A DNA stretch of 64,000 nucleotides, taken from positions 62,001-126,000 of the forward strand of contig NZ_KZ845671.1 in NCBI RefSeq assembly GCF_003313465.1. The letters are read 5' to 3'. The stretch is from Thermoflavimicrobium daqui (GTDB taxonomy: Bacteria; Bacillota; Bacilli; Thermoactinomycetales; Thermoactinomycetaceae). This document shows, piece by piece, positions 19,562-39,011 of the stretch (position 1 is the first letter of the stretch; the number at the start of each line of letters is the position of its first letter). Under the pieces are notes generated by a model, which made no database searches, was not told where the DNA came from, and was given only the letters and a program-made list of their open reading frames with translations. The position numbers and the translations under genes were made by a program.

Positions 19562-20521
19562 TTATGCTTTAAACCGTTTCACAATTTTCTCTAAATGCAG
19601 TTTTCGCGAAGCTTTGAAATAGATTAGGGCATTTCTCGGAGCGTATGAAAGATGGTAGAGAACCTCTTCACGACTATGACAAACTGTAACTCTACTGCGG
19701 TCAAATCCACTTTGAATAGCAGATTGTGCTATAATCCGAGCATTTTTGCCAATCGTAATTAAATGGTCGATATTTAATCTAGCTATCAGTCGACCAATCC
19801 GTTGGTGCGAAGAATAGGTTAGCCGACCTAGCTCCAGCATATCACCAAGCACTGCAATGGTCGGTCGAGATCCTGCGATATTCTTTAATACATGCAGACC
19901 AGCTGCCATGGCGGTGGGATTGGCATTCCACGCATCATTGATTAACAAGCGGCTCGCCTGCCCCCTAATCAGTTGTAGACGCATTTGGGGAGCATGAAAA
20001 CGAGCAAGCCCTGTTTGAATCGCTTTGATCGGAACTCCCATACTAAGACTAACACCGATTGCAGCCAGAGCATTATAAACATTGTGGATTCCAAAAGTCG
20101 GTATAAAGAAAGGATAGATCTTTCCATTGATCTTCGCTTCAAATTTCATTCCTCTTGAGGTGTAGTGAACATTTCTCCCTCGAATGTAGGCTGGATTTTT
20201 GATACCAAATGTTCTAATTTTCCCAATAAAATTTCGCGTATTTAGCTTACGTGAACGTGCATCATCGGCATTTAAAAATAAAGTTCCTCTAGGCCGCATT
20301 CCATCGATAATTTCTTGCTTGGCCTTAACGACGATATCTAAATTTCCCAAACTGCCAACATGTGCTTCTCCTACATTCGTAACAACGCCAATATGTGGCC
20401 TGACAATGGAGCATTGTCTCTTAATGTTATAAAGAGACTTCATTCCCATCTCCAGTAAAAGCAATTTATGTTTCGGTTTTAGCTGAACAAGATAGTTGGG
20501 TAAAAAGGTCAGAGTGTTTAG
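19562..20521 (-). CDS. murF: murF-like gene, 3' part (split by element)
   Basis: This is the C-terminal two thirds of a UDP-MurNAc-tripeptide--D-Ala-D-Ala ligase-like protein, the enzyme that adds D-Ala-D-Ala in peptidoglycan precursor synthesis. It lacks a start of its own: the frame is open from the junction core at 20514-20521 and begins LNTLTFLPNYL, then LLLEMGMKSLYNIKR, the middle-domain Mur ligase pattern. Further motifs are GEAHVGSLGN, FGIHNVYNALAA, NDAWNANPTAMAAG and LGDMLELG. The ATP-binding loop is missing here and sits on the other part at 29519-29946. Joined at the shared core, the two parts make a 459-aa frame. The protein is unusually rich in Arg/Lys for a MurF. A normal murF is presumably elsewhere in the genome. 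Confidence 0.92.
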   Translation of the reverse strand, partial: LNTLTFLPNYLVQLKPKHKLLLLEMGMKSLYNIKRQCSIVRPHIGVVTNVGEAHVGSLGNLDIVVKAKQEIIDGMRPRGTLFLNADDARSRKLNTRNFIGKIRTFGIKNPAYIRGRNVHYTSRGMKFEAKINGKIYPFFIPTFGIHNVYNALAAIGVSLSMGVPIKAIQTGLARFHAPQMRLQLIRGQASRLLINDAWNANPTAMAAGLHVLKNIAGSRPTIAVLGDMLELGRLTYSSHQRIGRLIARLNIDHLITIGKNARIIAQSAIQSGFDRSRVTVCHSREEVLYHLSYAPRNALIYFKASRKLHLEKIVKRFKA

Positions 20522-20573: not shown

Positions 20574-22118
20574 TTATATATGTGGGAAGATCTCTAAAGC
20601 AAACCCATCTCTTTTGGTTTTAGGTTTTCTTTCATACAATATTTTTTTTAAAACGGACTTAAGTAGCTGATTTTTTTTCCGAACATCATCAGTGAAGTGA
20701 TAAGCTTCAATAACTGTTTTGATTTTAGGAATAAACTTTACTTGTTTTTTTTCTTTTTCTTGTTCATATTCAATTTCCTGTTTCAATTCATCAATTTCAA
20801 GTTGAACTGTTTTGATTTTATCTACAACAATTTTCTGGCGTTCCTTAAATGTGGTGACATCATAAATGCCTTGTTCAAGTAGATCGTGTAGATTGTCTTT
20901 TTGTTTATTTAGAACGACTAATTCGCTATTTTTTGTGGTCAAAGCTTTTTTCTTCATGGGTATAGTAGAAGGCTGTTTTATTTGGTGCTCTTCATTGGCT
21001 TCAAACTCACTCACAATTTGTTCTAAAGACTTTAGAACTCTTTGCTCTACTAATGATACTAGGGCACTCCTTTGCTTTCCTTTACAATGGGAACTTTTAC
21101 ACTTGTACATATCGCAACCTTTTTTATCTGAGGAGTAAACGATTGCGTAGCCACAGTATCTACAATATAAAAGTCCGGCTAGTGGATTGACTAACTTCGA
21201 TTTTTTTCTAGTTTTTGGAGTCTTTTTTCCATATGAAGCATGAGCTCTTTCCCATAGTTCTTGGCTAATAATCGGTTCATGTGCGTTGTCTCTTCGTATC
21301 CATTGATCAGATGGTAAAGCTTTCGATATATATTTTCCACTTCGCTTTACCCATTTCATTTTTCCCCAAACAATATGCCCTAAGTACACCTCGTTGTTTA
21401 ACATATTTCTGATCTGTACAGCATTCCATTCACGGGCTTTATCAGGCGACTTTATTCCTAGCTTTCGCAGCTCATGAATAACAGAAGATCGACCATGACC
21501 ATCTGCAATCATCTCGAATATTTTTTTAACTACCCAACTTGTTTCAGGATCAGGATGAAGCTTTAAATTTTCATCACGTATATATCCAAAAGGAGGTTTT
21601 CTGGTAACCGACTTTCCCTCTTGTGCAGAGACACGTCTACCACGTTGCATCCTTTTTGTAATGGCTTTTAGCTCCTCGCGGGAGATAATACTTTTTACAC
21701 CAAATAGAAGTTCGGCACCTTCTGCTAAAGGGTTAATTATTTCGGTTGGTGTGACAATGATCGTTTCAGAGTATTGTAAAGTTCTAAATATATAACCCAT
21801 ATCAAACATGTCTCCGCGTCCTAAACGATCAAGATCCATTACAAGGACAGCATCAACTGCGTTTGCTTCTACTTTACGCAACATTCGCTGAATTTCAGGA
21901 CGATCGATAATATGCTCTCCTGATACTACTTCTTCAAATATTTCTAAAATATTATGATGCTCCTTCTTAGCTAGCTCTAAAAGCTGTCTTCGATGCCTCT
22001 CTAGTGTATCGTATGATCCTCCTTCATTAAGTGCCTTTCTTTCTTCCTCAATATCTTTTCGGCTTTTCCTGAGATAAATGAAACAATCTAATCCAATCGG
22101 ACGATCCATCAATATCAC
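20574..22118 (-). CDS. Large serine recombinase, SprA-like
   Basis: A 514-aa site-specific recombinase and the obvious integrase/excisionase of the element. The N-terminal catalytic domain (1-155) has the nucleophile Ser in YLRKSRKD near residue 17, VSGEHIIDRPEIQRML, and the LDRLGRGD box. The recombinase domain follows (PPFGYIRD ... WNAVQIRNMLNNEVYLGHI). The zinc ribbon is at about 332-365 (YCRYCGY ... CKSSHCKG), then a coiled coil (about 405-465) of the kind that controls directionality. YLRKSRxD and the N-terminal insert (GGSYDTLERHRRQ) recall SprA of SP-beta more than SpoIVCA. The ATG start follows AAGGTGAT. The gene is intact, unlike most cargo, and ends 33 bp from the att arm. Confidence 0.93.
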   Translation of the reverse strand: MILMDRPIGLDCFIYLRKSRKDIEEERKALNEGGSYDTLERHRRQLLELAKKEHHNILEIFEEVVSGEHIIDRPEIQRMLRKVEANAVDAVLVMDLDRLGRGDMFDMGYIFRTLQYSETIIVTPTEIINPLAEGAELLFGVKSIISREELKAITKRMQRGRRVSAQEGKSVTRKPPFGYIRDENLKLHPDPETSWVVKKIFEMIADGHGRSSVIHELRKLGIKSPDKAREWNAVQIRNMLNNEVYLGHIVWGKMKWVKRSGKYISKALPSDQWIRRDNAHEPIISQELWERAHASYGKKTPKTRKKSKLVNPLAGLLYCRYCGYAIVYSSDKKGCDMYKCKSSHCKGKQRSALVSLVEQRVLKSLEQIVSEFEANEEHQIKQPSTIPMKKKALTTKNSELVVLNKQKDNLHDLLEQGIYDVTTFKERQKIVVDKIKTVQLEIDELKQEIEYEQEKEKKQVKFIPKIKTVIEAYHFTDDVRKKNQLLKSVLKKILYERKPKTKRDGFALEIFPHI

Positions 22119-22412: not shown

Positions 22413-22958
22413 ATGGATCTTAGACCCGAAGAGGCATTCATGTTAGGCTATAAGCCAGCTTGTACATGCCAAAAAGGAAATCTACGTTTGAAACCTTATT
22501 TTGACCGATTACTAGAAGGAAAATACCCAAACTATCGCTTTAATGATCTTGAAGCTTATATTTTTTTTCGAACCGAAGAAGAAAAAGAACAATTTGTTCA
22601 AGATATGAAAAGTGTTGAACTATATTCAGTTGAATATGTAATAAAGCTAGGTACTGTACTAGGGATACCGCCTAAGTCTATTAACTTCTTTGCAAAGTAT
22701 TGGGAATCCGACTATCCAAAAGGCAAGATTGGTGTAAACTGTTCAGGAATAGTGTTTGCCACTCATGTTGATATTTTAATAGAAGAAGTGGAATATCTCT
22801 GGAATAAGTATAGAAATACCAGAGCGGAAGAGTATCCAACCATAGTTGAGATCGGAAATAATGAATATCGATACGTAATCAATTATGGTGATGTTTTAGA
22901 ACTTTATTCTGTTGCTCAAGATGTTTCAAAAATAATGTCTGGTAAAGTTACTGCCTAG
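22413..22958 (+). CDS. Cassette 1 protein, unknown family (paralog A)
   Basis: A 181-aa soluble protein starting at ATG 22413. It shares a scaffold with the proteins at 23665 and 24921: an N-terminal (E)AFMLGYKPA motif, a central FFRTEEEKEQF segment, LGTVLGIPPKSINFF in the middle, then GIVFATHVDILIEEVEYLWNKY. I do not recognise a described family. It has two extra Cys near the start (CTCQ). The distance to the Cys-rich peptide frame is 14 bp, suggesting co-transcription. No signal peptide or membrane segment is visible. Confidence 0.7.
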   Translation: MDLRPEEAFMLGYKPACTCQKGNLRLKPYFDRLLEGKYPNYRFNDLEAYIFFRTEEEKEQFVQDMKSVELYSVEYVIKLGTVLGIPPKSINFFAKYWESDYPKGKIGVNCSGIVFATHVDILIEEVEYLWNKYRNTRAEEYPTIVEIGNNEYRYVINYGDVLELYSVAQDVSKIMSGKVTA

Positions 22959-23034
22959 CCCTAGAAAGGGGCTTTTTTGTTTGCATGCAAAAAGCTGATA
23001 TCCTATTTTGACTTTAGGATCTCGGCTTTTTTTA
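22957..23034 (+). terminator. Two tandem terminators closing cassette 1
   Basis: AGCCC..GGGGCT with a T run is followed, after TTTGCATGCAAA, by AAAAGCTGATATCC..GGATCTCGGCTTTTTT. The same pair, with near-identical linker sequence, closes cassette 3 (25968-26040), and the second one closes cassette 2. Confidence 0.8.
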
Positions 23035-23270
23035 GCGGTATTTCCTTACTTTTTCAACAAGATCAGCATATTTTTGTTGTTTTTCTGTAGCTTCCTGTAA
23101 GAGCTTTGATCATTCATAGTACTTGTTAATAAGATCAATAAACGCTGCATCTATCAATCGGCTTTGTGGGTATGAGATAGCTTTGATAACTCTTCAAATG
23201 CTTCCATGATCTCTGGAATAATTGTATTTCCAAAGCGGGTTCTTGTTTTTAAGTCTTTATCTTTTTTCAT
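23032..23270 (-). pseudogene. Broken ribbon-helix-helix type regulator
   Basis: On the minus strand an ATG at 23270 opens MKKDKDLKTRTRFGNTIIPE and IMEAFEELSKLS. It then shifts frame to YPQSRLIDAAFIDLINKYYE, meets a stop, and continues SKLLQEATEKQQKYADLVEK. Together these look like a small Arc/CopG-like DNA-binding protein with a coiled-coil tail. At least one frameshift and one stop make it inactive. It is convergent with cassette 1, as the intact gene at 24352-24513 is with cassette 2. Confidence 0.5.
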
Positions 23271-23453
23271 TTACTTTTCTCTTTCTATACAACTATAAGT
23301 ATCATATTTTTCTAAAAAAACTTGTTAACTTATCACAGTTTTATATATATTTATATCAGAAACAACAGAAAACATTAAACAAATCTAAGTTCATCCCTGA
23401 TAACTGTTGTAATAGTGGACAAACTAACACTATTATTCTAGGGGGATGACGGC

Positions 23454-23585
23454 ATGAAATTTGTTGGTGGTCAACCAGTATTGGAATGTTGTTTCAGAGC
23501 AAGTTGTCCAGGTTATTGTTATAAGGATGAACGTGGCTTTACGGTTTGTACCGATTGTGACGAGGAATCCGGTCCTGGACAATAG
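23454..23585 (+). CDS. Cassette 2 Cys-rich 43-aa peptide
   Basis: ATG 23454 follows GGGGG at a normal distance. The 43-aa product has seven Cys (LECCFRASCPGYCYKDERGF, then VCTDC), enough for one or two zinc sites or for crosslinks. A terminator follows at once (23592-23628), before the partner protein gene, so the peptide should be made in excess over the partner. It is related to the third peptide (shared ..G(F/V)T(V/Y)C-x-x-C-D pattern). Roles as a zinc-ribbon protein or a peptide toxin/bacteriocin precursor are both possible; nothing decides. Confidence 0.6.
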   Translation: MKFVGGQPVLECCFRASCPGYCYKDERGFTVCTDCDEESGPGQ

Positions 23586-23591
23586 TATTAT

Positions 23592-23628
23592 AAAAAGTGC
23601 GGCAGCTATTAAAGTGTCGCACTTTTTG
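23592..23628 (+). terminator. Terminator between peptide and partner protein
   Basis: AAAAAGTGCG at 23592 pairs with CGCACTTTTT. It lies between the cassette 2 peptide and its partner gene, like the hairpin at 24851-24876 in cassette 3. Confidence 0.8.
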
Positions 23629-23664
23629 TTATAATCTTCAATAATTATAAAAAGAGGTGATGAT

Positions 23665-24249
23665 GTGTTATCATCCTACGAGGCATTTTTAGAAGGAGTT
23701 AAACCAGCTACGTATGTCAATTTAGATATTATCGTTCGCCCTGAGTTAATACCTAATTTAATGGAGTATGCAAACTTTAATGAGAGTGATAACTTCTGGA
23801 TGTTTTTCAGAGATGAAGAAATGAAAACGCAGTTTTTAAATCAATACAGCAATTTAAGCCATAATGACCCAGAACGAGAGAGGATTCTTGGTCTTACCTT
23901 AGGATACCCTCCTAAAGCTGTTGACTTTTATACATATTATTATGAATGGCAACAGAGGGAAAGAGAAGAAGCTAAACACTGGTACTTCACACATAAAGTC
24001 GGAATGAAGTATCACGGGATAATGTTTACCAGTCATATTGATGATCTTAAAGAGAATGCCCAATGGCTTTGGGATACTTACCAGATTGAAGAAGATACAT
24101 ATATTAAAGTGGTTAGGATGCCTGATCGCAAGAGAGAAGAATTTCCTGTAGCCTTCCGAAATCTAGCTGATCTAGTAGATGCAAAAGAAAAAGTCCAGAG
24201 GATACTAGATCATAATCGAGTAGCATTGGAGCCAATCGCTCCTAAGTGA
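23665..24249 (+). CDS. Cassette 2 protein, unknown family (paralog B)
   Basis: A 194-aa soluble protein from GTG 23665, which follows AGAGGTGAT. Conserved with its two paralogs: SYEAFLEGVKPATY at the N-terminus, WMFFRDEEMKTQF, LGLTLGYPPKAVDFYTYYYE, then HKVGMKYHGIMFTSHIDDLK and ENAQWLWDTY. The repeated (H)xVGxKYxGIxx(T/S)S(H/S)I block and GYPPKAV are the strongest family marks. I know no named domain with this pattern. Probably cytoplasmic. The short Cys-rich gene and a terminator precede it. Confidence 0.75.
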   Translation: MLSSYEAFLEGVKPATYVNLDIIVRPELIPNLMEYANFNESDNFWMFFRDEEMKTQFLNQYSNLSHNDPERERILGLTLGYPPKAVDFYTYYYEWQQREREEAKHWYFTHKVGMKYHGIMFTSHIDDLKENAQWLWDTYQIEEDTYIKVVRMPDRKREEFPVAFRNLADLVDAKEKVQRILDHNRVALEPIAPK

Positions 24250-24300
24250 GCACATACATAATAAATTTGGTCTTGGAAACAGGGCTTTTTTTGTGTATGA

Positions 24301-24345
24301 AAATAGCCGAGGCATCCAGTTTATTTAGGATGGCTCGGCTTTTTG
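24301..24345 (+). terminator. Terminator closing cassette 2
   Basis: TAGCCGAGGCATCC pairs with GGATGGCTCGGCT around TTTATTTA, then TTTTG. It resembles the closing terminators of cassettes 1 and 3. Confidence 0.85.
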
Positions 24346-24351
24346 TTAGTA

Positions 24352-24513
24352 TTAATCTTCGTCTTTATCATTTGACTTCTTATTAGCTTGATCTTTGTAC
24401 CAGCTTACTAGCTTTTCAATCATACGACCAGCATCAGTATCGTGGTCAACTGCTAATTTTTTCAGTTCCTTTAGTTTCTCTTCATCCATCGTAGTAGTAA
24501 ACTTTTTTCTCAT
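24352..24513 (-). CDS. Small ribbon-helix-helix regulator
   Basis: A 53-aa protein from ATG 24513, after GGGAGG. The N-terminus RKKFTTTMDEEKLKELKKLA has the beta-strand then helix pattern of Arc/CopG regulators, then DTDAGRMIEKLVSWYKDQ as the second helix, and an acidic tail. It is convergent with cassette 2 and divergent from cassette 3, with palindromic boxes between them (24540-24580). It likely represses itself and perhaps cassette 3. As the only small intact DNA-binding protein in the element, it is also one candidate for control of recombination. Confidence 0.65.
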   Translation of the reverse strand: MRKKFTTTMDEEKLKELKKLAVDHDTDAGRMIEKLVSWYKDQANKKSNDKDED

Positions 24514-24536
24514 TTTTCTAATTCCTCCCTTAGCAT

Positions 24537-24584
24537 ATACGCATGATACGCATATAATAAAAATATAGTCGTATCATACGTATT
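24537..24584. promoter_or_regulatory. Paired palindromic operator boxes
   Basis: Two related 11-bp sites, CGCATGATACG (24540-24550) and CGTATCATACG (24570-24580), lie 30 bp centre to centre, three helical turns, between the divergent ribbon-helix-helix gene and cassette 3. Such repeats are typical of operators for this regulator class. Confidence 0.6.
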
Positions 24585-24657
24585 CTCCTTTGAACCATAA
24601 TTTTAGCACTATTCTTTGTAATAGTCTTCGCTAAATTATTGGGAAGGAGGGGATATC

Positions 24658-24833
24658 GTGGCTAGTCTAACCTTCGGATGGTTGTCCATGTTCTTGGGTT
24701 CAGATGATAAAGATAATGATAAGGACAAAGACCGAGATAAAGAATGTCAGATGGGGGTAAACTCAAAAGGACATGGAATGGTGTAACATATTGTGATGGA
24801 TGCGATAAGGAAGACTTTTCACAAAGTTGGTAA
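24658..24833 (+). pseudogene. Cassette 3 Cys-rich peptide, frameshifted
   Basis: GTG 24658 after AAGGAGG opens MASLTFGWLSMFLGSDDKDN, an Asp/Lys-rich stretch and KECQMGVNSKG, then stops at 24786. One frame over, the sequence continues TWNGVTYCDGCDKEDFSQSW to TAA 24831-24833. The join restores a Cys..CxxC peptide like that of cassette 2, so a one-base change has probably broken it. Confidence 0.5.
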
Positions 24834-24850
24834 GACTATTCTTGAGACTG

Positions 24851-24876
24851 GGAGGCTGCATTGACAGCCTCCTTTT
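24851..24876 (+). terminator. Terminator between peptide 3 and partner
   Basis: GGAGGCTG at 24851-24858 pairs with CAGCCTCC at 24865-24872, then TTTT. It overlaps the longest possible start of the next frame, which argues for the later start at 24921. Confidence 0.8.
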
Positions 24877-24920
24877 CATTTAATAATCTGGCAGAAATTT
24901 ATGGGATGAGGTGTGTAGGG

Positions 24921-25961
24921 ATGGAATTTAAACCAAACTACAATATGTCTTTTTCGGAAATACGTAAAGAGCGATGGCGATCTATTGAAGGTTTTCAAAA
25001 AGGAATTAAGCCTGCCTATTATGACAACCTGAAAAACCTATCTCTCGATGAAATCCAGCAATTGGAAAGCTATCCGCATGTGGAAGTAGACAGTGACTCA
25101 ATGATCTACTTTCAGTCTGATACCTTAAAAAATGCCTTTCTTGTGAAATTAAACGACTTGGTTCCATTCTCAGCGGATTACAGGTATTGCGGGCTGAAAG
25201 CCCACGGTTTCAATCGTGGGATGAAAGACTGCGTTGCTCGGTAATCCCTTTTTGGGATTGCTTAGAGCAACAATTTTCTGTATAATCGAATACATGAGCG
25301 GTGCTCATCCTACTTATAGTAGGTTTTGTTCCTAAGTACGTCATGGTATGGGGTTCTAGTGGCGAACAAGTCTTTCCCACTAGGTAAAATCATGAGAGTG
25401 AGTGAAAAGGAACTAGAACGCTGGTGATAGGCGTTCCGCCTATGTGGGTACATTTCTAACTGCATGGGACGGGGTGATGACACACCCCTGAACTTGGGAG
25501 TTGTTCAAAACGGAAACGGACTGCGAACGCTAACTACCCAAGAATTCCATCGGCTTCAGCCGTGGGAGTGTCAAATTACTGTACTTGGTGAAACTTTGGG
25601 ATACCCTCCAAAAGCAGTTTCTTTTTATGTCAATCATTGGGTTAATCTACAAAAGGATCAAGATCAGGAAAGAGTGAACTACGCAACTCATCATGTCGGA
25701 TTAAAATATTGCGGTATAAATTGCTCAAGTAGCATTGTAGACTTTACTGATAATATAAAGTGGTTTTGGGATACATATGAGCAACCTATAGCAATTTGGG
25801 TTGTTGTAGATATGCTTAAATACGATATGGGGGCTGATTTTCGAATACCCTATAGAGATGGACAAGAGCTTTATAATGTAGAAAAGACAGTAAAATCGAT
25901 TCTCTTACAAAATGAAATGGTAATCAGGAAAGATATAGTGGTAGCTTCAATTAATATTTAA
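24921..25961 (+). CDS. Cassette 3 protein, interrupted by a 393-bp element (paralog C)
   Basis: The third paralog of the unknown family. I use ATG 24921 after AGGTG. The first part, with GFQKGIKPAYYDNL and SMIYFQSDTLKNAF, runs to codon TAC at 25179-25181. The coding sequence resumes at 25575 with ITVLGETLGYPPKAVSFY, then HHVGLKYCGINCSSSIVDF and WFWDTYEQ. Between them lies an insertion (25182-25574). Removing it joins the halves in frame as FSADY-ITVLG, giving 215 aa. As sequenced, the first part ends at a stop at 25244 inside the insertion, so the protein is truncated unless the insertion is removed. Confidence 0.75.
25182..25574 (+). mobile_element. Transposase-less IS200/IS605-type element (PATE-like)
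   Basis: This 393-bp insertion follows TTAC (25178-25181) and ends in TCAA (25571-25574). These are the target and right-end cleavage tetranucleotides known for IS608-type single-strand transposition. No target duplication is made. Both ends have the subterminal hairpins expected: CCCACG/CGTGGG at 25201-25220 and CCATCGGCTTCAGCCGTGG at 25547-25565. No tnpA or tnpB frame fits. It must be mobilised by a Y1 transposase from elsewhere. The exact boundaries are set by the paralog reading frame, which is restored without it. Confidence 0.85.
25300..25574 (+). ncRNA. Candidate omega-RNA (TnpB guide RNA scaffold)
   Basis: The 3' part of the small element has no frame but is structured: GGCGTTCCGCC, GGGGTG..CACCCC and the terminal CCATCGG hairpin, ending in the TCAA right end. 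In IS605-family elements the guide RNA scaffold ends at the right end and the flanking DNA gives the guide. A clearly related sequence occurs on the minus strand at 53245-53400 (shared AACTGCATGGGA and CTAACT..AAGAAT blocks). The 5' limit is a guess. No tnpB is in the window. Confidence 0.55.
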
Positions 25962-26878: not shown

Positions 26879-27394
26879 TCAAACTATTCGGTTTATCCAT
26901 AGATCAAATAATCTATCATCATTTTTTTCAATAAGGGCTAGTTCAATCCCGGTCATAGCAAACTTAGTAGCTTCTTGATATCTTTTTGTTTTATTAAGTA
27001 GTTCAGCTTGTAATTCATACATATTTAAAAGAACCTCTGTGTTAACGATTTGATGAGATTCCTGCCACATGCTTCCTAAGATATTTAAAGCTTCTTCTAT
27101 TTGACTTTGATTTTTTAGATAATTAACTTGGTTGACCATCAATAGATATTTAAGATGTGTCCAATCACCATCAGCATCAAACGCTTTTAATCCTTCTTTT
27201 GAATAACTTAATGCACTATTGGTATCATTCTGGTAATAAGATACATGACTAAATTCATTGTAGTAAGTAGATTTTATATTGCTCCGAATCGAATTAGGAT
27301 GGTTATCAACTGCTTTAATCCCTTTTGAAAAATAAAGCAAAGCTTGATTCCACATTTTTTCTTGGAGTAGTATTTTCCTTTTTCTAGCTTGGTT
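26879..27394 (-). pseudogene. TPR-repeat protein fragment (Rap/Rgg-like regulator remnant)
   Basis: About 160 residues of helix-turn-helix TPR units are visible (NQALLYFSKGIKAVDN, SALSYSKEGLKAFDADGD, EALNILGSMWQESHQ, RYQEATKFAMTGIEL). The frame is open upstream past its first ATG (27355) to about 27394, where sequence of an opposite-strand LanM remnant begins, so the 5' part is lost. Similar TPR arrays occur in peptide-pheromone-sensing regulators. With a lanthipeptide enzyme remnant beside it, a former role in peptide sensing is possible. Confidence 0.5.
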
Positions 27395-27395
27395 A

Positions 27396-28095
27396 GCGAA
27401 AGTGTCTGGCGAGGAAAAATATGAGGTATTATCTAGGGGAGCTGTTGAGCAAATTAAAATCCTATTAAAAGAGGATTTAATTAAGGGAACTATGAATATT
27501 GGAGCATATGATGGTTTAAGCGGAGTTGTTTATGTACTTTCTAATCTGGCAAAGATCTGGAAGGATGATTCCCTTTTAAGTTGGATTGACCTGATTTTAA
27601 TCCAAATAGAAAAGGTGATAACTAAAGATGAGTACTTGGATTTAATTGGAGGATCGGCTGGATGTATTTTAGTTATGTTAGGACACAATCAGATAAGCAA
27701 GAATAAAAAGGCTTTATCCATTTCTCAAATATATAAATGAAGATTTTATAAAGGAAGAAATTCGAACCGCTGTTCAAACTACTCTAAAGCAAGAACTTTT
27801 TAGCGATAATCATTCACTTTGTCATGGATACTTAAGGAACCTTGATTTCTTATTGAAAGCAATGGAAGTTGTGGATGGTTTTCAAAAAGATTTCAATTAC
27901 TTTGTCTCAAATGTTTTTAAAAGTATTAAGGAACACGGCTGGATTTGCGGAACACCATCTAATATCGAAATACCAGGTTTAATGACAGGTCTTTCGGGAA
28001 TTGGATACAACCTCCTTCGATTTGCTTATCCAGATATTCCTTCCGTTTTGGGTTTAGAGTTTTTTGAAAGCGAAAGAAAAGGGGAAGGGTTTTGA
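27396..28095 (+). pseudogene. LanM-type lanthipeptide synthetase remnant (cyclase domain)
   Basis: Only the C-terminal LanC-like part remains. The first frame (27402-27740) has MNIGAYDGLSGVVYVLSNL and LIGGSAGCILVML. After a frameshift near 27725 it continues EEIRTAVQTTLKQELFSDNH, SLCHGYLRNLDFLLKA, HGWICGTPSNIEIPG and LMTGLSGIGYNLLRFAYPDI. CHG and the WxCG Cys are zinc ligands of the lanthionine cyclase. The dehydratase domain is absent. It once belonged to a class II lanthipeptide cluster; no precursor or leader peptide is recognised nearby. Confidence 0.75.
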
Positions 28096-28099
28096 AAAA

Positions 28100-28452
28100 A
28101 TTTTAGAACATTTCTGATTATATGGATGACTCAGGGATTATCTGCTTTAGGAAATGCTATAAGCTATTTCACGATAGTATTTTGGTTAACCCAGACAGCA
28201 CCAAAAAAAGATTTGATTTTTTTACTAACCGTTTTGAGTTTGATTACATTGATACCTCGATTTGTTATATCCCCAATCGCAGGAGTTTGGGTAGATCGTT
28301 TTGATCGAAAAAAAATTATGTTGGTTGCAGATCTTTTACAAGGATTTCTTATGATTGTTCTTTTGTTTGCATTTTATGAAGACTTAAATGTCTGGATTTT
28401 GTTTTCCTTGTTAGGTGTGATGGCATTAATTAATCAAGTAACCGAAAGCTAA
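28100..28452 (+). pseudogene. MFS transporter, N-terminal fragment
   Basis: The frame reads NFRTFLIIWMTQGLSALGNA, four membrane segments and AGVWVDRFDRKKIM, the conserved MFS loop 2-3 motif, then stops at 28452. The start region is shifted by one base in an A run, and the last eight helices are missing. It probably came from the export part of the peptide cluster. Confidence 0.65.
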
Positions 28453-28689
28453 TATCATTTACAGATTCTTCTAGATTTATTAACTAAGACTTTTTTTGGG
28501 TATAATTCTGGGATTGATATTTGGAGTGATGACCCAGTTCATGAAGCTTTTAAGAAATACCATGCGTTATTGGCAGAACAATATTCCAATATGTCCGAAA
28601 AAGAAGGTTTTATCAAACTGAACAGTTTAGAGAATCCGAAGGTTCTCTTGGAACAGATTTGTATACATCTTAAAGATTATCTAAAGTAA
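28453..28689 (+). pseudogene. Thymidylate-kinase-like C-terminal fragment
   Basis: In the same frame as the MFS fragment, after its stop, comes about 75 codons: GYNSGIDIWSDDPVHEAFKK, YHALLAEQYSNMSEKEGF and LEQICIHLKDYL. The pattern (SxDxxxSFxxYxxxLAExY, then an Ile/Asp strand) recalls the end of dTMP kinase-type proteins. Start and P-loop are missing. Confidence 0.4.
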
Positions 28690-28738
28690 AAGGTCAATTG
28701 ATTCAGCATTGTAATAGTAATTAAGTTTGGATAGATTC

Positions 28739-28776
28739 AAAACCATCTACCATATCAAATCAATTAGATGGTTTTT
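28739..28776 (+). terminator. Terminator
   Basis: AACCATCTA at about 28740 pairs with TAGATGGTT, followed by TTTTTC. Confidence 0.75.
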
Positions 28777-29201
28777 TCTTATATATACTAAACTGCAATC
28801 CTGTATTTATCAGGGTATTTTTCTTCATAATAAAATGCCTCTTTATCTGTAAGAGCATGTTTCCATATATTCACCCAGTAAAATTATTAACCGAATGTAC
28901 GTTTGATTTGATTGGTAAGCAATGGGATCGGTAAATGTACTTCTTAGTACTATCAACCCTTGATATTTAATTAGCAATAGTATAATCTTTTAGTAAGAAA
29001 TTATGTTGCTTTGCGAACACCATGAGCTTCTGAAAAATCCCAAGGGGTGTTCGGAAATGCAAAAGCCCTTGACATATAAGGGATAAGGGAATTGTCAGAC
29101 AGCTCTTAGCAATGAAAAATCACCTTAAAAAGCTGAAAAAGGCGTGGTGTTCGGAAACTGGTCTACAAAGCCAATAGTACCAAGGTCTCCGAACATCTGC
29201 T
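28777..29201 (+). promoter_or_regulatory. Putative CRISPR leader and flanking remnant
   Basis: A minus-strand fragment (28795-28880, WVNIWKHALTDKEAFYYEEK) is a gene tail. From about 29000 the DNA looks like a CRISPR leader: GCGAACACC, then GGTGTTCGGAAA twice (about 29046 and 29152), and a TTGACA at about 29069. The first repeat starts at 29202 on the same strand. Leader identity is inferred from position and repeat orientation. Confidence 0.45.
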
Positions 29202-29309
29202 GTATCAATAGAAAACACCTCATTAAGAGGATTGAAACGCATGAGTGGTGGCGGTAAAGGTTCGTTGCTCCAGTATCAATAGAAAACACCTCATTAAGAG
29301 GATTGAAAC
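29202..29309 (+). CRISPR. Two-repeat CRISPR mini-array without cas genes
   Basis: Two identical 37-bp repeats (29202-29238 and 29273-29309) begin GTATCAATAG and end GAGGATTGAAAC, with one 34-bp spacer (29239-29272). The ATTGAAAC 3' end is the usual 5'-tag of type I-B/III crRNAs. The repeat has a partly symmetrical CTC..GAG stem. There are no cas genes in the window, so any use needs Cas proteins from elsewhere. The spacer can be read as ATG AGT GGT GGC GGT AAA, which could be the start of a gene, but its source is unknown. Confidence 0.85.
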
Positions 29310-29376
29310 TTTAGATATCCGAGCTGTTTTTCTAGTAAGCCTTAATAACAACAAAAAATATCTTTTAGTCAAAATT

Positions 29377-29406
29377 AAAGCTGCCTTCTAATCGGCAGCT
29401 TTTTTA
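29377..29406 (+). terminator. Terminator near the element end
   Basis: AAAGCTGCC (29377-29385) pairs with GGCAGCTTT (29394-29402), followed by TTTT. Confidence 0.8.
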
Positions 29407-29492
29407 TAAACAGGAATCCCTACTAAATGAATCATTAGGGTTTTAACTTGTATCTAATTAAGCCTACTGAAGCCCAAATAATCAGCGGAGGT

Positions 29493-29526
29493 TTTACTGG
29501 TATCATCTAAATATAAATGTGTTTAG
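29493..29526. other. Left-type attachment junction (attL-like)
   Basis: The element arm TTTACTGGTATCAT (29493-29506), CTAA, ATATAAAT (29511-29518) is followed by the core GTGTTTAG (29519-29526) and then murF coding sequence. The arm is an inverted match to that at 20522-20541: the outer 14 bp are perfect, and the arm here is 6 bp longer before the core. Confidence 0.88.
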
Positions 29527-29946
29527 GTTCCCCTCTGTTTTGACCATTGGCCATCTGGATTTTAGTATGGAAGCAACCATGGCGGTTGTCGTCGATTTTC
29601 CAGCACTTCCTGTAATCCCAATCACTTTCGTAGCGTGCTGTCTCCAATTCCAGCGTGCTAGTTTCCAATAAGCAGAAAATGGATCTCTGACCTTAATAAT
29701 TCCTACGCTTCGCGGGATGCTTACTGATGAAGCCTGAAGGGGGAGAACAACAGCAAGTGGCTTAACACGACGAATAGCTCTCAACTGTTTGGTCCAATTG
29801 GTCTTTTGCGAGTAAAAATAGACTTGACGCCGACTCAGTCTTTTCGGTCTGCCATAATTAACAGAATGAATCGGTAATGCACGATGTCCAGAGAGGACTT
29901 GCCCCTCGATCAAATGTGCTAGTTTTCCAAGGGTGATGGTTTTCAT
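29519..29946 (-). CDS. murF: murF-like gene, 5' part (split by element)
   Basis: This is the N-terminal third of the MurF-like ligase. ATG 29946 follows GGGGAGG. The UDP-substrate domain spans about 1-105 and is Arg-rich. The ATP loop GITGSAGKSTTTAMVASIL is near residue 112, and the Mur signature KTEGNLNT comes at the junction. As sequenced the frame leaves the core and stops after four foreign codons (29503). Joined through the core it continues LTFLPNYLV.. in the part at 19562-20513, giving one 459-aa protein. Without excision it can make no active enzyme, since the ATP loop and the C-terminal domain are on separate halves. Confidence 0.92.
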
Positions 29947-30776
29947 GCATAAACCTCCCCAACAGCTGGATCAACAAATGGTAAGTGTAGGTTAATGTCT
30001 CTGTTATCATATTCACAAGTCACTTGTTTGGGATTGGATGAAGGCCTATTTTTAAGGTGGGAAGTGGAGAGTAGGTTGTTGTGAGAGAAAAATGGTGGAT
30101 ATGATTTCATCTCAATATCCCGATCCGAGTTGGCGGTTCGGAATTTGTTTGATCTGATAGGTAAAGCAAAAGAAACATACTGGATTGAAGAGAAATAGAA
30201 AGGAATTTCTTTAAAATAGGATTCATTACTCCTAAAGTTTTAATCTTTGCTCAAGATATAAATAGAAAACACCTCTTGAAGAGGATTGAAATGCTGTTTA
30301 TCTGGAATAGTAGTTTTATTATTACAATGGAACCAGAATTTATTTTACTGGACTTTTTGCGGGATAGATTTGCCATGCGAAATGATTTATTATCATGTAC
30401 AACGAAAGTTTGGTATGAGAATTCATTTATATGAAAATGAGTGGTAATTCCGAAAGTTGTAAATCGATTATAAGCGTATTCAATAAAGACTAAATTAATT
30501 ACCGCCTGTAGAATACAGGCGGTAGAATGTAGCTTAAAATCTAGGGTTTTTTAGAAGCGTGACCAGCTATCGTAGGGATTTTTTCTCCTTTTTTCTGTTG
30601 AAAAATTGCTTTCTCTAAAAGAGGAATTTACCCTTTAAGGGCATTCTCGTTTTGCTCAAAGATGAAAGTATAGCTTTTCGAGTTAGAGAATTGTCAAGCT
30701 CTACAAAAAAGCTATTGATCATCGTAGAAACAATCTGTGCCTTAGGTTGTTCCTAAGGGCTCCAATGGTTTTCTAA
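29947..30776. other. Intergenic region with remnants
   Basis: This 830-bp stretch should hold the murF promoter on the minus strand. Short coding remnants on the plus strand (about 30130-30199, RNLFDLIGKAKETYWIEE; about 30330-30450, MIYYHVQRKFGMRIHLYENE) have no starts. A degenerate CRISPR repeat lies at 30255-30291, and an 11-bp hairpin ACCGCCTGTA..TACAGGCGGT at about 30501-30523 has no T run on the plus strand. No intact gene is seen. Confidence 0.45.
30255..30291 (+). repeat. Degenerate single CRISPR-like repeat
   Basis: AATAGAAAACACCTC then TTGAAGAGGATTGAAAT matches the repeat at 29202-29238 over most of its length, with changes at the 5' end, in the loop and at the last base. It lies outside the element, upstream of the murF-like gene, with no second repeat near. 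Confidence 0.7.
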
Positions 30777-31979
30777 TTATTCCACTAAGCTTTCGGCCAA
30801 TTGTTTTTCTTTCCACATGACTGTAATACTAAAGCCAATGATTAAAATGATACATGCGAAAAGATAAGGATAGTGAATGTTTACGTCAAATAGTATTCCA
30901 CCCGTCGCTGGCCCGACGATATTACCTAAACTCGTATAGGTTGAGTTCATTCCAGCAACAAATCCTTGCTCTTTCCCGGCAGCTTTTGATAAAAATGTCG
31001 TCAATGCGGGACGAAGCAAGTCAAATGCGAGGAAGATGAAGCAAGTTACCACCAGTACTGCCAAAAAGCTAGAGATCACGGTGGACACTACCGCCAATAT
31101 GGCACCTGTAATTAAACATAATTGGATCAGTTTCTTTTCACCAAGTATATCTACCATTTTCCCAAACATAAATACTTGCACAACAACACCAAATATTGAA
31201 CTTATTGTAATAATGACCGCAATATCCTTCGGCGTGAAGCCGAATTTATGATCAGAAAATAGGCTAAAAACAGTTTCATATGTTGACAAACCAAAAGCGA
31301 GTACAAATACAATGATAAATGCAATAAAGTAAAGCGGATTAAGTGATTTTTTTAAATCGCTTATAAAGCTAGTTTTCTGTGTATTAGCAGAAATTTCCGC
31401 AAGCTGCTCTTTTGTTAGCGGCTCTTTTAAAATAAATATTGAAGAAATACATGCTAAAAAGGCAATGCCTGCCGCAAAGAAGAAGGGCATGCGTATACCG
31501 TATTCTGCAATAAATCCACCGATCCCAGGTCCTATAATAAAGCCCGTACTAATAGCGGCAGATATATAGCCCATCGCTTTTGGTCGTTCCTGAATGGATG
31601 TAATATCTGCAACATATGCAGTAACACCTGGCATAACAAAGGCGGCACTAATTCCTCCTAGAATCCTTGATATATAAAGTATGGATACACTCGTGCCTAA
31701 ACCAAAGATAAGTTCTGAAACTCCAAAAAGGAATAAGCCGATTATGATGATCTTCTTTCTACCATAAAGGTCAACCCAACGTCCTGCGAGGGGTGATATA
31801 AGTAGTTGTGCCACTGCAAATACGGCGACAAGATAGCCCATTGTTTTTCCTGATAAATGCATGATATTCATAAAAGACGGCATAACAGGGATGACAAGAC
31901 CAATTCCTAGAAATGCAATGAATATATTGCTTAGAAGAATCATTAATACCGACTTTTGTTCTTTTATTGTTTTCTTCAT
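30777..31979 (-). CDS. MFS drug efflux transporter
   Basis: A 400-aa inner-membrane antiporter with twelve predicted helices, in the NorA/Blt/Tet family of drug:H+ antiporters. The loop motif GRWVDLYGRKKII is near residue 65, the antiporter motif C region GFIIGPGIGGFIAEYG near 150. A large loop lies in the middle (KEPLTKEQLAEISANTQKTS). ATG 31979 follows AAGGGGTG. It lies 25 bp after the TetR gene on the same strand, so the pair is an operon, probably induced by a toxic compound released by TetR. The substrate is not known. Confidence 0.88.
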   Translation of the reverse strand: MKKTIKEQKSVLMILLSNIFIAFLGIGLVIPVMPSFMNIMHLSGKTMGYLVAVFAVAQLLISPLAGRWVDLYGRKKIIIIGLFLFGVSELIFGLGTSVSILYISRILGGISAAFVMPGVTAYVADITSIQERPKAMGYISAAISTGFIIGPGIGGFIAEYGIRMPFFFAAGIAFLACISSIFILKEPLTKEQLAEISANTQKTSFISDLKKSLNPLYFIAFIIVFVLAFGLSTYETVFSLFSDHKFGFTPKDIAVIITISSIFGVVVQVFMFGKMVDILGEKKLIQLCLITGAILAVVSTVISSFLAVLVVTCFIFLAFDLLRPALTTFLSKAAGKEQGFVAGMNSTYTSLGNIVGPATGGILFDVNIHYPYLFACIILIIGFSITVMWKEKQLAESLVE

Positions 31980-32004
31980 GTATCAACACCCCTTTCTGTA
32001 AGAA

Positions 32005-32586
32005 TCATCGATGTGAAATACCTCTCCAAAATACGGTCCAAGAGGCTTCTAATTTATCCTTTAGTCGTTTCTCATCATTGCCATATACCAGCTCTAACAT
32101 AATGGAATCGACTACTCCTAAGAAGGCGAAGGTCGGTGTTTTTGCTACATCTCCGACGATTGCTTTTGCATCGATCCAACCCTGAAATTTACTTTCCAGT
32201 ATCGCTTGTACCTTCTCTTCGATATCAATTACTTCCTTGTCGATTGCTTTCGCCAGATGTGCTGGCGGAAAAAATGACACACGTAGCCAAAACTTTAATT
32301 GTTCATTTTTTTGGAAAAGATCGATTACCAATTGTAGAAAGCCGTATAAGTCTTTTTCGGGATTTTGCGAATCAATTTTACTAAAATATTGGAGTTTTGA
32401 AGATAGCTCCGTCTCTTTCGCATCACGTAAAACTTGCAGAAAAAGATCATCCTTTCCTTTAAAATGGGCGTAAATGGACTGCTTTTTCATGCCGACCGCT
32501 TCAGCTATTAGAGAAAGGGAAGCTCCTTCATAACCATGAATTGTAAAATATTTTAGAGCTGCCTCCTTAATTTCATTGCTTTTCAA
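32005..32586 (-). CDS. TetR-family repressor of the efflux pump
   Basis: A 193-aa regulator from TTG 32586, 6 nt after AGGTGA. The HTH is at residues 3-50 (NEIKEAALKYFTIHGYEGAS, LIAEAVGMKKQSIYAHFKGK). The C-terminal all-helix part is the ligand and dimer domain. It precedes the MFS gene and has a 12-bp palindrome just upstream, so autorepression of the operon is likely. Confidence 0.85.
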   Translation of the reverse strand: MKSNEIKEAALKYFTIHGYEGASLSLIAEAVGMKKQSIYAHFKGKDDLFLQVLRDAKETELSSKLQYFSKIDSQNPEKDLYGFLQLVIDLFQKNEQLKFWLRVSFFPPAHLAKAIDKEVIDIEEKVQAILESKFQGWIDAKAIVGDVAKTPTFAFLGVVDSIMLELVYGNDEKRLKDKLEASWTVFWRGISHR

Positions 32587-32604
32587 TAAAATCACCTCAA
32601 TTTA

Positions 32605-32616
32605 ACGAACGTTCGT
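32605..32616. promoter_or_regulatory. Palindromic operator upstream of TetR
   Basis: ACGAACGTTCGT is a perfect 12-bp palindrome 19 bp upstream of the TetR start, suited to TetR binding. It is too short for a LexA box of the Bacillus type. Confidence 0.65.
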
Positions 32617-32855
32617 CAGTTATATTATCAAATTAAATAAATATAAGCAAGAAGAAAATATATTTATATGCATAAACTAATAATTTATAAACTAAAATGT
32701 TTTAGTAATAAATGAATATTGTCCAAAAGGCGATAGCTCCTCTACCCCTTTGCTTTAATATACATAAATATTAAAATATTACAATAGTACAAAATAGTGT
32801 ATCTATATGAGATAATGAACTAGGGAACACCAATTACATATTAGGAGGAGTTATC

Positions 32856-33194
32856 ATGAAACAGATCAGTAAATGGGTGTCTGTTTGCTTCATTAGTGCT
32901 TTGATGTCCTCGCTAAGCTTTAGTTTAGTAGCTAGTGCATCACCAGCAGCAGTGGTTTTTTTATATGAACATGGTTATTATCAAGGAGAGGAGAAGAGAG
33001 TAGCTGCAAATCCGGGTGTAAGTAGTCTAGGTTCGATGAATGATAAAACTTCTTCGATTAAAGTTAGAGGTCATTGTGTAAGAGTATTTGAACATGAGAA
33101 TTTTAAAGGGAAATCCCTTCGAGTTTGTCAAGATATTGATGACTTAAGCAAATATGGTTTCAATGATCAGATTTCTTCTATATATGTTGATTGA
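32856..33194 (+). CDS. Secreted beta/gamma-crystallin-like protein
   Basis: A 112-aa protein with a signal peptide (cleavage after VASASP-like site near 28). The mature part has two crystallin Greek-key motifs: FLYEHGYYQGEEKRV ... SMNDKTSSIKV and RVFEHENFKGKSLRV ... FNDQISSIYV. NDKTSS and NDQISS match the Ca-binding pattern (N/D)(N/D)xx(S/T)S. Similar small proteins in Streptomyces inhibit proteases (family I36), and a glutamyl endopeptidase is encoded at 47 kb, but a link is only a thought. ATG follows AGGAGGAG. Confidence 0.82.
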   Translation: MKQISKWVSVCFISALMSSLSFSLVASASPAAVVFLYEHGYYQGEEKRVAANPGVSSLGSMNDKTSSIKVRGHCVRVFEHENFKGKSLRVCQDIDDLSKYGFNDQISSIYVD

Positions 33195-33236
33195 TAAAGA
33201 TCCCTTCTATTGAATTACTCGTTGTGAGAATGGGTT

Positions 33237-33266
33237 GAGCGGCATCATTGAACGCCGCTCTTTTTT
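33237..33266 (+). terminator. Terminator
   Basis: GAGCGGC (33237-33243) pairs with GCCGCTC (33254-33260), followed by TTTTTT. Confidence 0.9.
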
Positions 33267-33371
33267 GTTGGTAAATTTCCATTTAGTTCCTTGGTGATTC
33301 CGAAATCAATCAGATGCTCTCTATTCTAGTGTAGAAGTCTATTTTTAAGTTAAATTGATAAAGAACAAGAG

Positions 33372-33902
33372 CTAAATAATTCCCATATATTCCCCGAATT
33401 CTAAAAGCTTCTCATAGGGGTCTCCTTCTAATCCCAAAACTCGGCAAAAAGCAGGCTCCGTTTTAAGTCCTTGTTTTTTGAGTTTTATTACTTCTTCTCT
33501 TAAGGAAGGAAACTGCTTCATTAAAGCATATTCAATGATCATATGAAGATAAGCATATTGTTCTTTTACAGGCTGTGATTGACCAAATAACTCAAATTCG
33601 AACCCATCAAAAATAAAATTCGCTTTAACTACTGGGACTTCTCTAATCAAGAGTCTTTTTAGTTTGAAATCTTTTTTATCACCGTACAAGGTTTCTACCT
33701 TTTCCTCAAATTGATGAAAATCATCAACTTCCATAATCATATCTAAGTCAGAACCCACTATATCAATTCCTATGGGAAATGTACCACACAGTGTGGGATT
33801 ATACTCAGATAAGTTATCCATTATTCCTAAATTCCTAATTGCTTTATAAGCAAGCTTTTGTTTTTCATTCCCAAATTGTAAGTAATCAATAGTATTGAAC
33901 AT
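33372..33902 (-). CDS. DUF4269 nucleotidyltransferase-like protein
   Basis: A 176-aa cytoplasmic protein. The strand-loop-strand GTFPIGIDIVGSDLDMIMEV has the G-S..DxD layout of minimal nucleotidyltransferase folds, and later VVKANFIFDGFEFELFGQ fits the third acidic strand. This pattern and length match DUF4269, for which no substrate is established. Single gene; no partner HEPN gene is next to it. ATG 33902 has only a weak ribosome binding site. Confidence 0.75.
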   Translation of the reverse strand: MFNTIDYLQFGNEKQKLAYKAIRNLGIMDNLSEYNPTLCGTFPIGIDIVGSDLDMIMEVDDFHQFEEKVETLYGDKKDFKLKRLLIREVPVVKANFIFDGFEFELFGQSQPVKEQYAYLHMIIEYALMKQFPSLREEVIKLKKQGLKTEPAFCRVLGLEGDPYEKLLEFGEYMGII

Positions 33903-34043
33903 GAATGATTCTCCAAAAGATTGATTTTATGAGTTTAAATTGTACACGTTTTTAGCGGAAATAAAATATAGAAGTGGTAAAAGTACATGAAGATCAATAC
34001 ATATGTCTCAAATTATTTTCCATAAGTGATGAAAGGTACTGCT

Positions 34044-34460
34044 TTAGGTATCATTCTTAGTCTCCAAAAGATGTCTACTCAAAAAATCGACTTGATCAGA
34101 AGACACCTGTTCACGTATTTCTGGGCAGTAGAAATCGAAGTGACCAACTGGATAGGTTTGCAGTTGTGCATTTGGGGCAGCTTCTACAATCTCCTTCGCC
34201 AATTCTCCAACAGTTTCACGATCATATTCTCCGATACATACAAGCAACGGCATCTTTATCTGGGAAGCCTTTTCACTAGGCTTATACTTCATCATTTCTA
34301 AAAATACCCGAGGAGCGACTTCATTTCGCCAATGTTCACTAATCATGTTCTCTATGGTTTTTTGTGCTTCTAAGCTGGCCATCACTGCCAGCTCCCCAGG
34401 TTTTCCAACCGATTTTATATAATATGGAGATCTACCAAGCCAACCTCGAAGAAGGTGGAA
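34044..34460 (-). pseudogene. Alpha/beta hydrolase, C-terminal fragment
   Basis: The frame holds the end of an alpha/beta hydrolase: a cap region (ELAVMASLEAQKTIENMI), then MPLLVCIGEYDRETVGELA with the acidic residue strand, and YPVGHFDFY with the catalytic His. The nucleophile half is missing; beyond about 34460 the DNA belongs to a LysR remnant on the other strand. Confidence 0.7.
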
Positions 34461-35106
34461 ATTCAGTCGCAGGATCAAGAAAATGCTCGTACCGTCAAAA
34501 TATCGATTTCTAGTCCAAGATTCCTCACAGGACTTATCAGTAAATTTATTAAACAGTATCCTGATACAAAAATACAACCGGGAATCGGAGTGAAAAGTGG
34601 AATACTGACAAGCTTGAAAAAGGGGGAAATTGATTTAGGAATAGCAGGTCCACCTATAACTGATGAAGAGATAGAGAGCTGTGTGCTGATAAATGTAGAT
34701 ATCGTACTGGTTTTACCTTCCAATCACAAGTTTGCAGCCAAATCTGAGATTTCATTAAGCAAAGTTGCCAATGAATCGTTTATTTCCCTTGCCAATCATA
34801 AAGAATATAGCAGTTTTACAACCGAGCTCTGTGAAAAAGCAGGATTCACTCCTAAGAATATTTTTGAGGTGGATTCGAATTTACTGGCAGAAATAATAAA
34901 CCTCGATCAAGGAGTGGCATTACTTCCTATTTCTATATGTAGAAAATACTATTTGAATTACATAAAAATCGTAGATGCTATATTGATCCTATCTTTACAG
35001 TCGGCTTATCTTGGGTAAAAGATAAAGTGTTATCTCCTGCAGTAAGAAATTTTCGAGACTTTATTATTTCTTACTTTAAAGATAACTACGAAATGTACAA
35101 AGTATA
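34455..35106 (+). pseudogene. LysR-type regulator, effector-domain remnant
   Basis: The N-terminal HTH is missing. What remains is the substrate-binding domain: VKISISSPRFLTGLISKFIK, GEIDLGIAGPPI, VLVLPSNHKFA and LDQGVALLPISI. Near 34975 the frame shifts and continues DPIFTVGLSWVKDKVLSPAV, RNFRDFIISYFKDNY to TAA 35104-35106. It has been fused head-to-tail with the broken hydrolase, a deletion scar. Confidence 0.7.
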
Positions 35107-35494
35107 ACCCTTCTTGATAGCAAATTGAAAAACTCCATTTTGGTCAAAATGGAGTTGTATACTAGAAAAGCCGAAAAGATCAGAAGTTCAATCATTAAAA
35201 ACAACAATATAGACATTGATTGCAACTGATTCCGTTGCTGGTCATATTGTTTATCCAGTTAATGACCCTGAAAATCGTGGATGAAGAAACAATTCCTGAA
35301 AAATCACATCTGACACTGGGATTTTTGACTTTGTAGGGTATTAAACTTGAAGAACACGTACTTTTTGGAAGCATTGGTTATCCTAATGAAGAAACAAATA
35401 ATGGCATGTTAAAGAAAGTTAAGGATGCAATCCATTTTCATTTCTCTTAAATATATCAGCGCTACGGAAAATGAAGAAGAAAGGAAGAGAAATC
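35107..35494. other. Decayed intergenic DNA
   Basis: Only short frames are seen, such as IKLEEHVLFGSIGYPNEETN near 35343-35450, probably the tail of a lost reductase or similar gene. No intact gene; the last 25 bp hold the ribosome binding site of the next gene. Confidence 0.35.
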
Positions 35495-36139: not shown

Positions 36140-36288
36140 AATGCTACTCCACCCGAGGAAATGGGATGCCTTCCTTGGATTATTCGTCCAACAGTTTAAG
36201 TAGGTTAGTTAGTATAATCTATTATCTGGTCTGGAGAATCTTCTAAGGCTGACACAATAAAAAACATGGGTCTCTTTCTTTTTTAATT

Positions 36289-36477
36289 TTGATGGTGGCT
36301 GTTATTGCCCCGATTGTTGAAGAAATCGTGTTCCGGGGTGTCATCTATCATGGGATCGTGTTCAGTATTAACCATGACACCGCTCTGAATAATTCCAATG
36401 TTATAGTATCTACTACCATTAGGTGGTGGATTTTCTTTTTGTATAGATTAGTGAATGAGAGAATAGTGATTCCATAA
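36289..36477 (+). pseudogene. CPBP-type membrane protease fragment
   Basis: APIVEEIVFRGVIYHG is the EExxxR motif of CPBP intramembrane proteases. The upstream half is missing and the frame degenerates after about 30 residues. The end overlaps a short hairpin CCACC..GGTGG. Confidence 0.6.
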
Positions 36478-36658
36478 AGAGCTTCCTTTTATATGCTTTG
36501 AAGAAAGCAGAATAGATAGCTAGTATGTTATTGTTATATATTGTTAATTTATAATTATTAATATATAATGAAATATGAATCAATACTAATAAATAGATTT
36601 GGAAAAGAAAGTGACCAATCTATATCCATTCTTCATTATTGATATACAGGGGGTAAAA

Positions 36659-38935: not shown

Positions 38936-39011
38936 TACAGCTAATCAATATCTATCATATTTTTCTATCTTATATGAAACGATTAGCATCTTACTGTGAT
39001 TTTGCTTGTTT

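Follow-up and report, generated by a model that had tools for sequence, protein, structure and literature searches.

A cas-less CRISPR mini-array with an exact phage target on a gene-splitting serine-recombinase element of Thermoflavimicrobium daqui

A CRISPR mini-array with two spacers lies inside an integrated element of about 9 kb in the genome of Thermoflavimicrobium daqui. The element encodes an intact large serine recombinase and splits a second murF gene of its host. One of the two spacers matches a provirus exactly, and further copies of the repeat, together with cas genes, are found elsewhere in the host genome. The array is a genuine part of the element, lacks cas genes and has an exact phage target; from the sequence data we infer a mechanism, leaning towards the reading that the array uses the Cas proteins of the host in trans against competing phages. 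The stretch of DNA analyzed here, referred to as the window, comprises 64,000 nucleotides and is part of contig 9 of the 3.87-Mb genome.

The sequence-only reading had proposed two perfect 37-bp repeats around a 34-bp spacer, and both repeats and spacer were found exactly so at 29202–29309 (Table 1). It had missed a second spacer and a decayed third repeat which follow directly, so that the mini-array holds two spacers. Repeat 3 agrees with the nearest repeat variant at 25 of 37 positions, a score never reached when the local stretch was randomized in 5000 simple shuffles. Its site ranks fourth among the repeat-like sites on the plus strand of the window, behind repeats 1 and 2 and a solo repeat at 30256. 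The array is followed by a terminator-like stem (AAAGCTGCC/GGCAGCTTT), which the scan flags on the minus strand only, the plus-strand reading having been made by eye; the AGCTGCC/GGCAGCT stem of this stretch also stands behind the array of a second element of the same genome (comparison by eye).

Besides that, the solo degenerate repeat (30256–30292, 32/37) has no leader, lies outside the element and is a candidate remnant or single repeat unit. It sits in a block of about 10 kb between a murF part and marR (29946–40403), which is absent from the congeneric genome G002, where the distance is 505 bp. An RNA anti-CRISPR made of a single repeat unit was rejected for the array, whose structure is repeat-spacer-repeat-spacer; the solo repeat alone would fit such a unit.

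Table 1 Features of the element, its array and the split genes. Coordinates refer to the window unless a locus is named.
Feature	Position	Strand	Basis or remark
Split second murF, C-terminal part	19562..20464	-	Pfam Mur_ligase_M and _C; tblastn
Att core, left copy GTGTTTAG, inverted arm on its right	20514..20521	.	Direct repeat of 29519-29526
Large serine recombinase, 514 aa, intact	20574..22118	-	Pfam Resolvase and Recombinase; PHROG integrase 3.4e-104
Cargo ORFs 22413-22958, 23665-24249, 24861-25244, 25464-25961	22413..25961	+	Three of four linked by similarity
Decayed cargo: TPR-regulator fragment (-), LanC-like fragment (+), MFS fragment (+)	26879..28452	.	Pfam for LanC, MFS
CRISPR leader	28911..29201	+	Gapped homology to C2:180575 leader; alignment of 9 leaders
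Repeat 1	29202..29238	+	
Spacer 1	29239..29272	+	No protospacer in searched sets
Repeat 2, identical to repeat 1	29273..29309	+	
Spacer 2	29310..29344	+	36/36 to provirus gene in G002 (match runs to 29345)
Decayed terminal repeat 3	29345..29381	+	25/37
Terminator-like stem AAAGCTGCC/GGCAGCTTT	29377..29402	.	Scan flags - strand only; + strand reading by eye
Split second murF, N-terminal part	29503..29946	-	77% to intact G002 gene
Att core, right copy	29519..29526	.	
Split Mn-catalase-family gene (second element)	N part L018:10428-10883; C part L115:8881-9231		

The carrier is delimited by direct copies of an 8-bp att core, with the array between them and with inverted arms beside the cores in which, at the best offset, 23 of 25 positions are identical. 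With its intact recombinase, direct core, inverted arms and split host gene, the carrier corresponds to a gin/skin-like element. The second murF gene is intact in G002 (461 aa, TIGR01143 murF), and another murF-like match of the host genome lies at C3:492170. The array had been placed 184 bp from the left arm of the element: the nearer arm indeed starts about 183 bp away, at what is the right end in window coordinates. The claim that no cas genes accompany the array inside the element agrees with the PADLOC analysis, which recognized no cas gene and no defence gene among eight element ORFs. Likewise, no phage structural gene was recognized among the element ORFs scanned.

Four cargo ORFs between the recombinase and the decayed genes gave no Pfam and no PADLOC match. 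Those starting at 22413, 23665 and 25464 match a phage family of unknown function and resemble each other (27% between 22413 and 23665, 35% between 23665 and 25464); relatives of the cargo are present in the second element of the genome, with 80% for 22413. The TPR-regulator fragment was recognized by tblastn against the intact TPR regulator of that second element. At the DNA level, the region 27500–31000 had no match in phages, and in plasmids only about 200 bp at 30804–31000, around an MFS-like gene. Because its terminal repeat and part of its cargo have decayed, the element may be old.

The DNA upstream of the array had been described as leader-like, and it proved to be a genuine leader. 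Leader and repeat are 91.4% identical to another host array (C2:180575) over 290 columns, of which about 253 belong to the leader and 36 to the repeat, in a block starting at about 28949; the repeat of the window matches that array at 36 of 37 positions. Searching the host for the same repeat and for cas genes, as had been suggested, was successful on both counts. The repeat family occurs with leaders at eight other array places (nine in all), and the alignment of the nine leaders contains long invariant blocks which are kept in the window leader. In a leader tree with 15 rows, the shortest path from the window leader (0.10) leads to C2:180575, and the leader of the second element is placed elsewhere. 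All G002 rows fall into a single branch (100/100), nested in a weakly supported fork together with further leaders of the host genome, several forks of the tree being weak; because of this position of the G002 branch, the duplication cannot be dated from the tree. The window leader shares about 70% identity with the G002 leaders. A single array inherited by both elements of the genome was not upheld, since their leaders are not grouped in the tree (support weak).

With respect to the machinery, PADLOC identified two effector sets on contig C2, namely type I-D genes (Cas10d, Csc2, Csc1, Cas3d, Cas4 and Cas1) at about 113–122 kb and type I-B genes (Cas8b, Cas7b, Cas5b and Cas3) at about 163–168 kb. 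Cas1 is present three times in the genome (in the type I-D locus on C2, at C2:168942 and at C1:284667) and Cas6 has one match, at C1:257464; all whole-genome Cas1 and Cas6 matches lie outside the element. In addition, a Cas9-like ORF, recognized by eye only, is located on C1 at about 285–289 kb.

Spacer 2 together with one further base (29310–29345) is identical at 36 of 36 positions to the minus strand of a provirus in G002 (C51:14269–14304). The target is an ORF of 324 aa with matches to replisome organizer and DnaD-like PHROGs (2.6e-54), adjoining a DnaC-like helicase loader, in the provirus on contig C51 (42,109 bp), which has its own serine integrase. Of these bases, 34 also occur exactly (35 by BLAST) in the IMG/VR contig UViG_2675903228_000001, which is equal in length to C51. 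Searching 42 genomes, including its own, with the 34-nt pattern at three mismatches returned G002 only, besides the array itself; spacer 2 is therefore no self-target, because its sole copy in its own genome is the array. On one side the identity stops where the repeat begins, and on the other it exceeds the spacer by a single base, a pattern that would be expected of a spacer rather than of a shared gene fragment. The trinucleotide ATT stands immediately 5' of the protospacer in the provirus, and no second protospacer was found with which this flank could be compared for a PAM. In phage records, spacer 2 found pieces of about 23 nt at most (40 records, E of 1 or worse, none covering 80%). The target provirus shares a distant integrase (38%), and its TPR regulator has 33% identity to that of the second element.

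As a side observation, the target provirus itself has array-like clusters (L044:13501–14790; repeat ATTGAATCCATTTTGGAATTAGAAC, spacing 72–78) near a sigma-like regulator gene. Similarly, on a provirus contig of genome G035 (L122; equal in length to IMG/VR UViG_2675903148), an array with about 10 repeats lies close to a gene of this sigma-like-regulator family.

Spacer 1 had been read as a plausible gene start, for which the searches returned no counterpart: there was no protospacer in 200 genomes, its own included, at three mismatches, the sole match being the array itself; an exact search of IMG/VR gave nothing, and phage and plasmid records, which had been suggested for this search, yielded just chance-level pieces of 17–23 nt. 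The proposed use of host Cas proteins against rivals draws on the host cas genes and on the provirus match of spacer 2, with no target on the side of spacer 1. For the second element, its clear spacer was found neither in 200 genomes, apart from its own array, nor in IMG/VR, and the 35 nt after its last repeat had no IMG/VR match either. The same search gave no match for one spacer of an element of genome G040, and for one spacer of the G035 provirus array it gave a match limited to a contig equal in length to its own. When all extracted spacers were compared by local BLAST with the loci collected up to that point, spacer 2 alone had an outside target; three matches of 21 nt at 90% were set aside as chance.

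A possible course of events is that the element received a copy of a host leader-repeat cassette near its att end and that host Cas1-Cas2 then added spacers in trans. Spacer acquisition may have been recent, because repeats 1 and 2 are identical. The array would be transcribed from its leader and cut by host Cas6 into crRNAs in which the ATTGAAAC handle precedes spacer 1 or spacer 2. Loaded into a type I-B or I-D complex of the host, these crRNAs would lead to the destruction of phages with a protospacer. In this way, the cell, and hence the resident element, would be protected from a competing temperate phage. This reading is supported by the host repeat family, the 91% leader identity, the host cas genes and the exact provirus match of spacer 2.

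A second recombinase of the host genome, at C3:150268, belongs to an element that splits a Mn-catalase-family gene (Pfam Mn_catalase), which we take to be cotJC. About 175 bp from the split, this element carries a mini-array, in which one spacer is clear, together with its leader. It has relatives of the window cargo as well as an intact XRE-TPR regulator and a lasso-cyclase-like gene (below the NCBIfam cut-off). In both elements of the genome, the array is thus situated within about 210 bp of an att core or split gene. XRE-TPR regulators recur among elements and proviruses (L018:2827–4257, L082:2694–4028, L044:2092–3456 and L122:8639–9973) and are possibly peptide-sensing regulators. Besides the two elements, another array of the host genome lies 236 bp from an ORF that by eye resembles a serine recombinase (L016:1914–3380 and 3616–3874); the surroundings include a relative of the window cargo and genes that look phage-like by eye.

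Relatives of the recombinase (E <= 1e-60) were found in 45 of 200 genomes; a recombinase/integrase search in genome contigs confirmed none, and the nearest relatives come from the 200-genome search. Around these recombinases, 49 neighbourhoods were gathered, most of them with a length of up to 20 kb and some truncated where a contig ended, of which 48 were searched with a direct-repeat detector (L076 left out). Arrays occur in 7 of the 48 neighbourhoods versus 0 of 40 control stretches of the same genomes, whose positions were picked by hand. The positive neighbourhoods are the window, L082, L085, L122, L149 and L044, all reported by the detector, and L018, which the detector missed and the repeat search found. 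The one-sided Fisher value is 0.012 (0.023 with detector matches only) for neighbourhoods that are not independent, genomes G000 and G040 supplying four of the seven. The clusters at L044:13501–14790 were counted as array-like although their repeat has no cas assignment, and L134, around a third G040 recombinase with two arrays, stayed outside the count, as this recombinase is absent from the list of relatives. Dropped by eye were detector matches with collagen-like coding repeats (L124, L126, L132, L152) or 72-bp spaced repeats (L136, L137, L044:3–24) and one control match with coding-like repeats (L156); L084:4116 (21 bp) fell under the length limit of the detector. Array size varies among the seven, with about 10 repeats in L122, so that not all are mini-arrays.

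In Thermoactinomycetaceae and relatives (L082–L150), serine-recombinase elements have inserted repeatedly into three genes, namely the Mn-catalase-family gene, yhbH and the second murF gene. Both halves of the split gene are in view in seven neighbourhoods for the Mn-catalase gene and in four for the second murF, and in five, yhbH (NCBIfam spore_yhbH) is interrupted next to the recombinase, at about residue 345, with a partial sixth match in L086. Since arrays accompany one of the seven Mn-catalase, two of the four murF and one of the five yhbH insertions, most such elements are without an array. In G040 (one contig), 29 copies of the 30-bp element repeat (up to three mismatches) are found near serine recombinases only (L082, L085 and L134). 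This genome has no Cas1 match, and its Cas6 match at 2.735 Mb is near arrays of another repeat type, so that its element arrays may be without matching machinery. G015, the genome of the element array in L149, has no Cas6 match.

A host array could serve the same purpose as the array of the element. An ordinary host array might have been copied into a genomic island, where it would work in the same way and serve the host, the element being incidental. This would be in agreement with the nine array places in one genome, with a leader closest to a chromosomal array of its own genome (91% versus about 70% to G002) and with a target phage that threatens the host as well. The position of the array close to an att core or split gene in both elements and the 7/48 versus 0/40 distribution speak against it, and we regard this explanation as rather unlikely. 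We give even less credence to a dead remnant, that is, a cassette captured once and now decaying with the element without function. Although only 25 of 37 positions are left in repeat 3, the LanC, MFS and TPR cargo is fragmentary and spacer 1 is without a target, repeats 1 and 2 do not differ at any position, the blocks common to nine leaders persist in the window leader, the recombinase is intact and spacer 2 perfectly matches a sequenced provirus.

It is highly improbable that the array is older than the insertion and belongs to the chromosomal locus instead of the element. The solo degenerate repeat outside the element could be taken as a hint of this, but it has no leader and sits in the separate block of about 10 kb missing from G002. 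Moreover, the array is placed between the att cores, and the intact second murF of G002, with 505 bp to the next ORF, has no such repeat in the 3.4 kb around it. Use of host Cas proteins by the element remains our preferred reading, supported also by the second element with its array near a split gene and by the count of seven against none. It is weakened by the lack of a target for spacer 1 and for the clear spacer of the second element, by the G040 element repeat, which occurs only near serine recombinases in a genome without a Cas1 match, and by an enrichment that rests on few genomes.

Arrays of this kind are already known; what is new is the gene-splitting carrier and its recurrence. The Sulfolobales viruses SPV1 and SPV2 carry cas-less mini-arrays of one or two spacers with host-like leaders that target related viruses (Medvedeva 2019, PMC6858448), and a review describes mini-arrays in the competition between viruses (PMC11656645). 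Compared with the arrays of SPV1 and SPV2, our array is alike in its one or two spacers, host-like leader and repeats, lack of cas genes, mobile genome and a spacer exactly matching another virus. It differs in that the carrier is a bacterial, integrated, gene-splitting element, the target phage is no close relative of the carrier, and the system is known here from sequence alone. Clostridioides difficile offers a second parallel: most strains have several prophage arrays, whose crRNAs are the most expressed in two strains (PMC6079278). As in our case, these are arrays in mobile DNA of a spore-forming Bacillota with type I-B systems (PMC6079278, citing Hargreaves 2014 and Boudry 2015), and they were likewise proposed to act against competing phages. 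There, the carriers are prophages with crRNAs detected in two strains, whereas here the array is minimal and no phage structural gene was recognized.

The carrier itself resembles gin, described as a non-phage gene-intervening element with serine recombinases (Abe 2017, PMC5595907), and skin and similar elements treated there, in having a serine recombinase, a short direct core, inverted arms and a split chromosomal gene. The term ‘CRISPR array’ occurs 0 times in PMC5595907, and among the matches listed, with their titles and abstract beginnings, there was no report of arrays on gene-splitting serine-recombinase elements. The gene split here is the second murF, and relatives cut yhbH and the Mn-catalase-family gene.

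More tentatively, the capture of leader-repeat cassettes might be a recurrent event in Thermoactinomycetaceae and related families, both for serine-recombinase elements and for phages. Such cassettes, which lie beside an att end in the present genome and adjoin phage genes of one kind in two proviruses, would be carried as arrays apart from cas genes, and guide arrays would then be standard weapons of the gene-splitting elements of these spore formers. How a cassette comes to lie beside an att site can be tested, since arrays recur in two elements of one genome and in relatives. The element of T. daqui provides a simple test case: its guide cassette has two spacers, the Cas machinery is encoded elsewhere in the genome, and the phage target is known and matches exactly. 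If our reading is true, CRISPR warfare between mobile elements, best shown so far for archaeal viruses, would reach the small gene-dwelling elements of spore formers.
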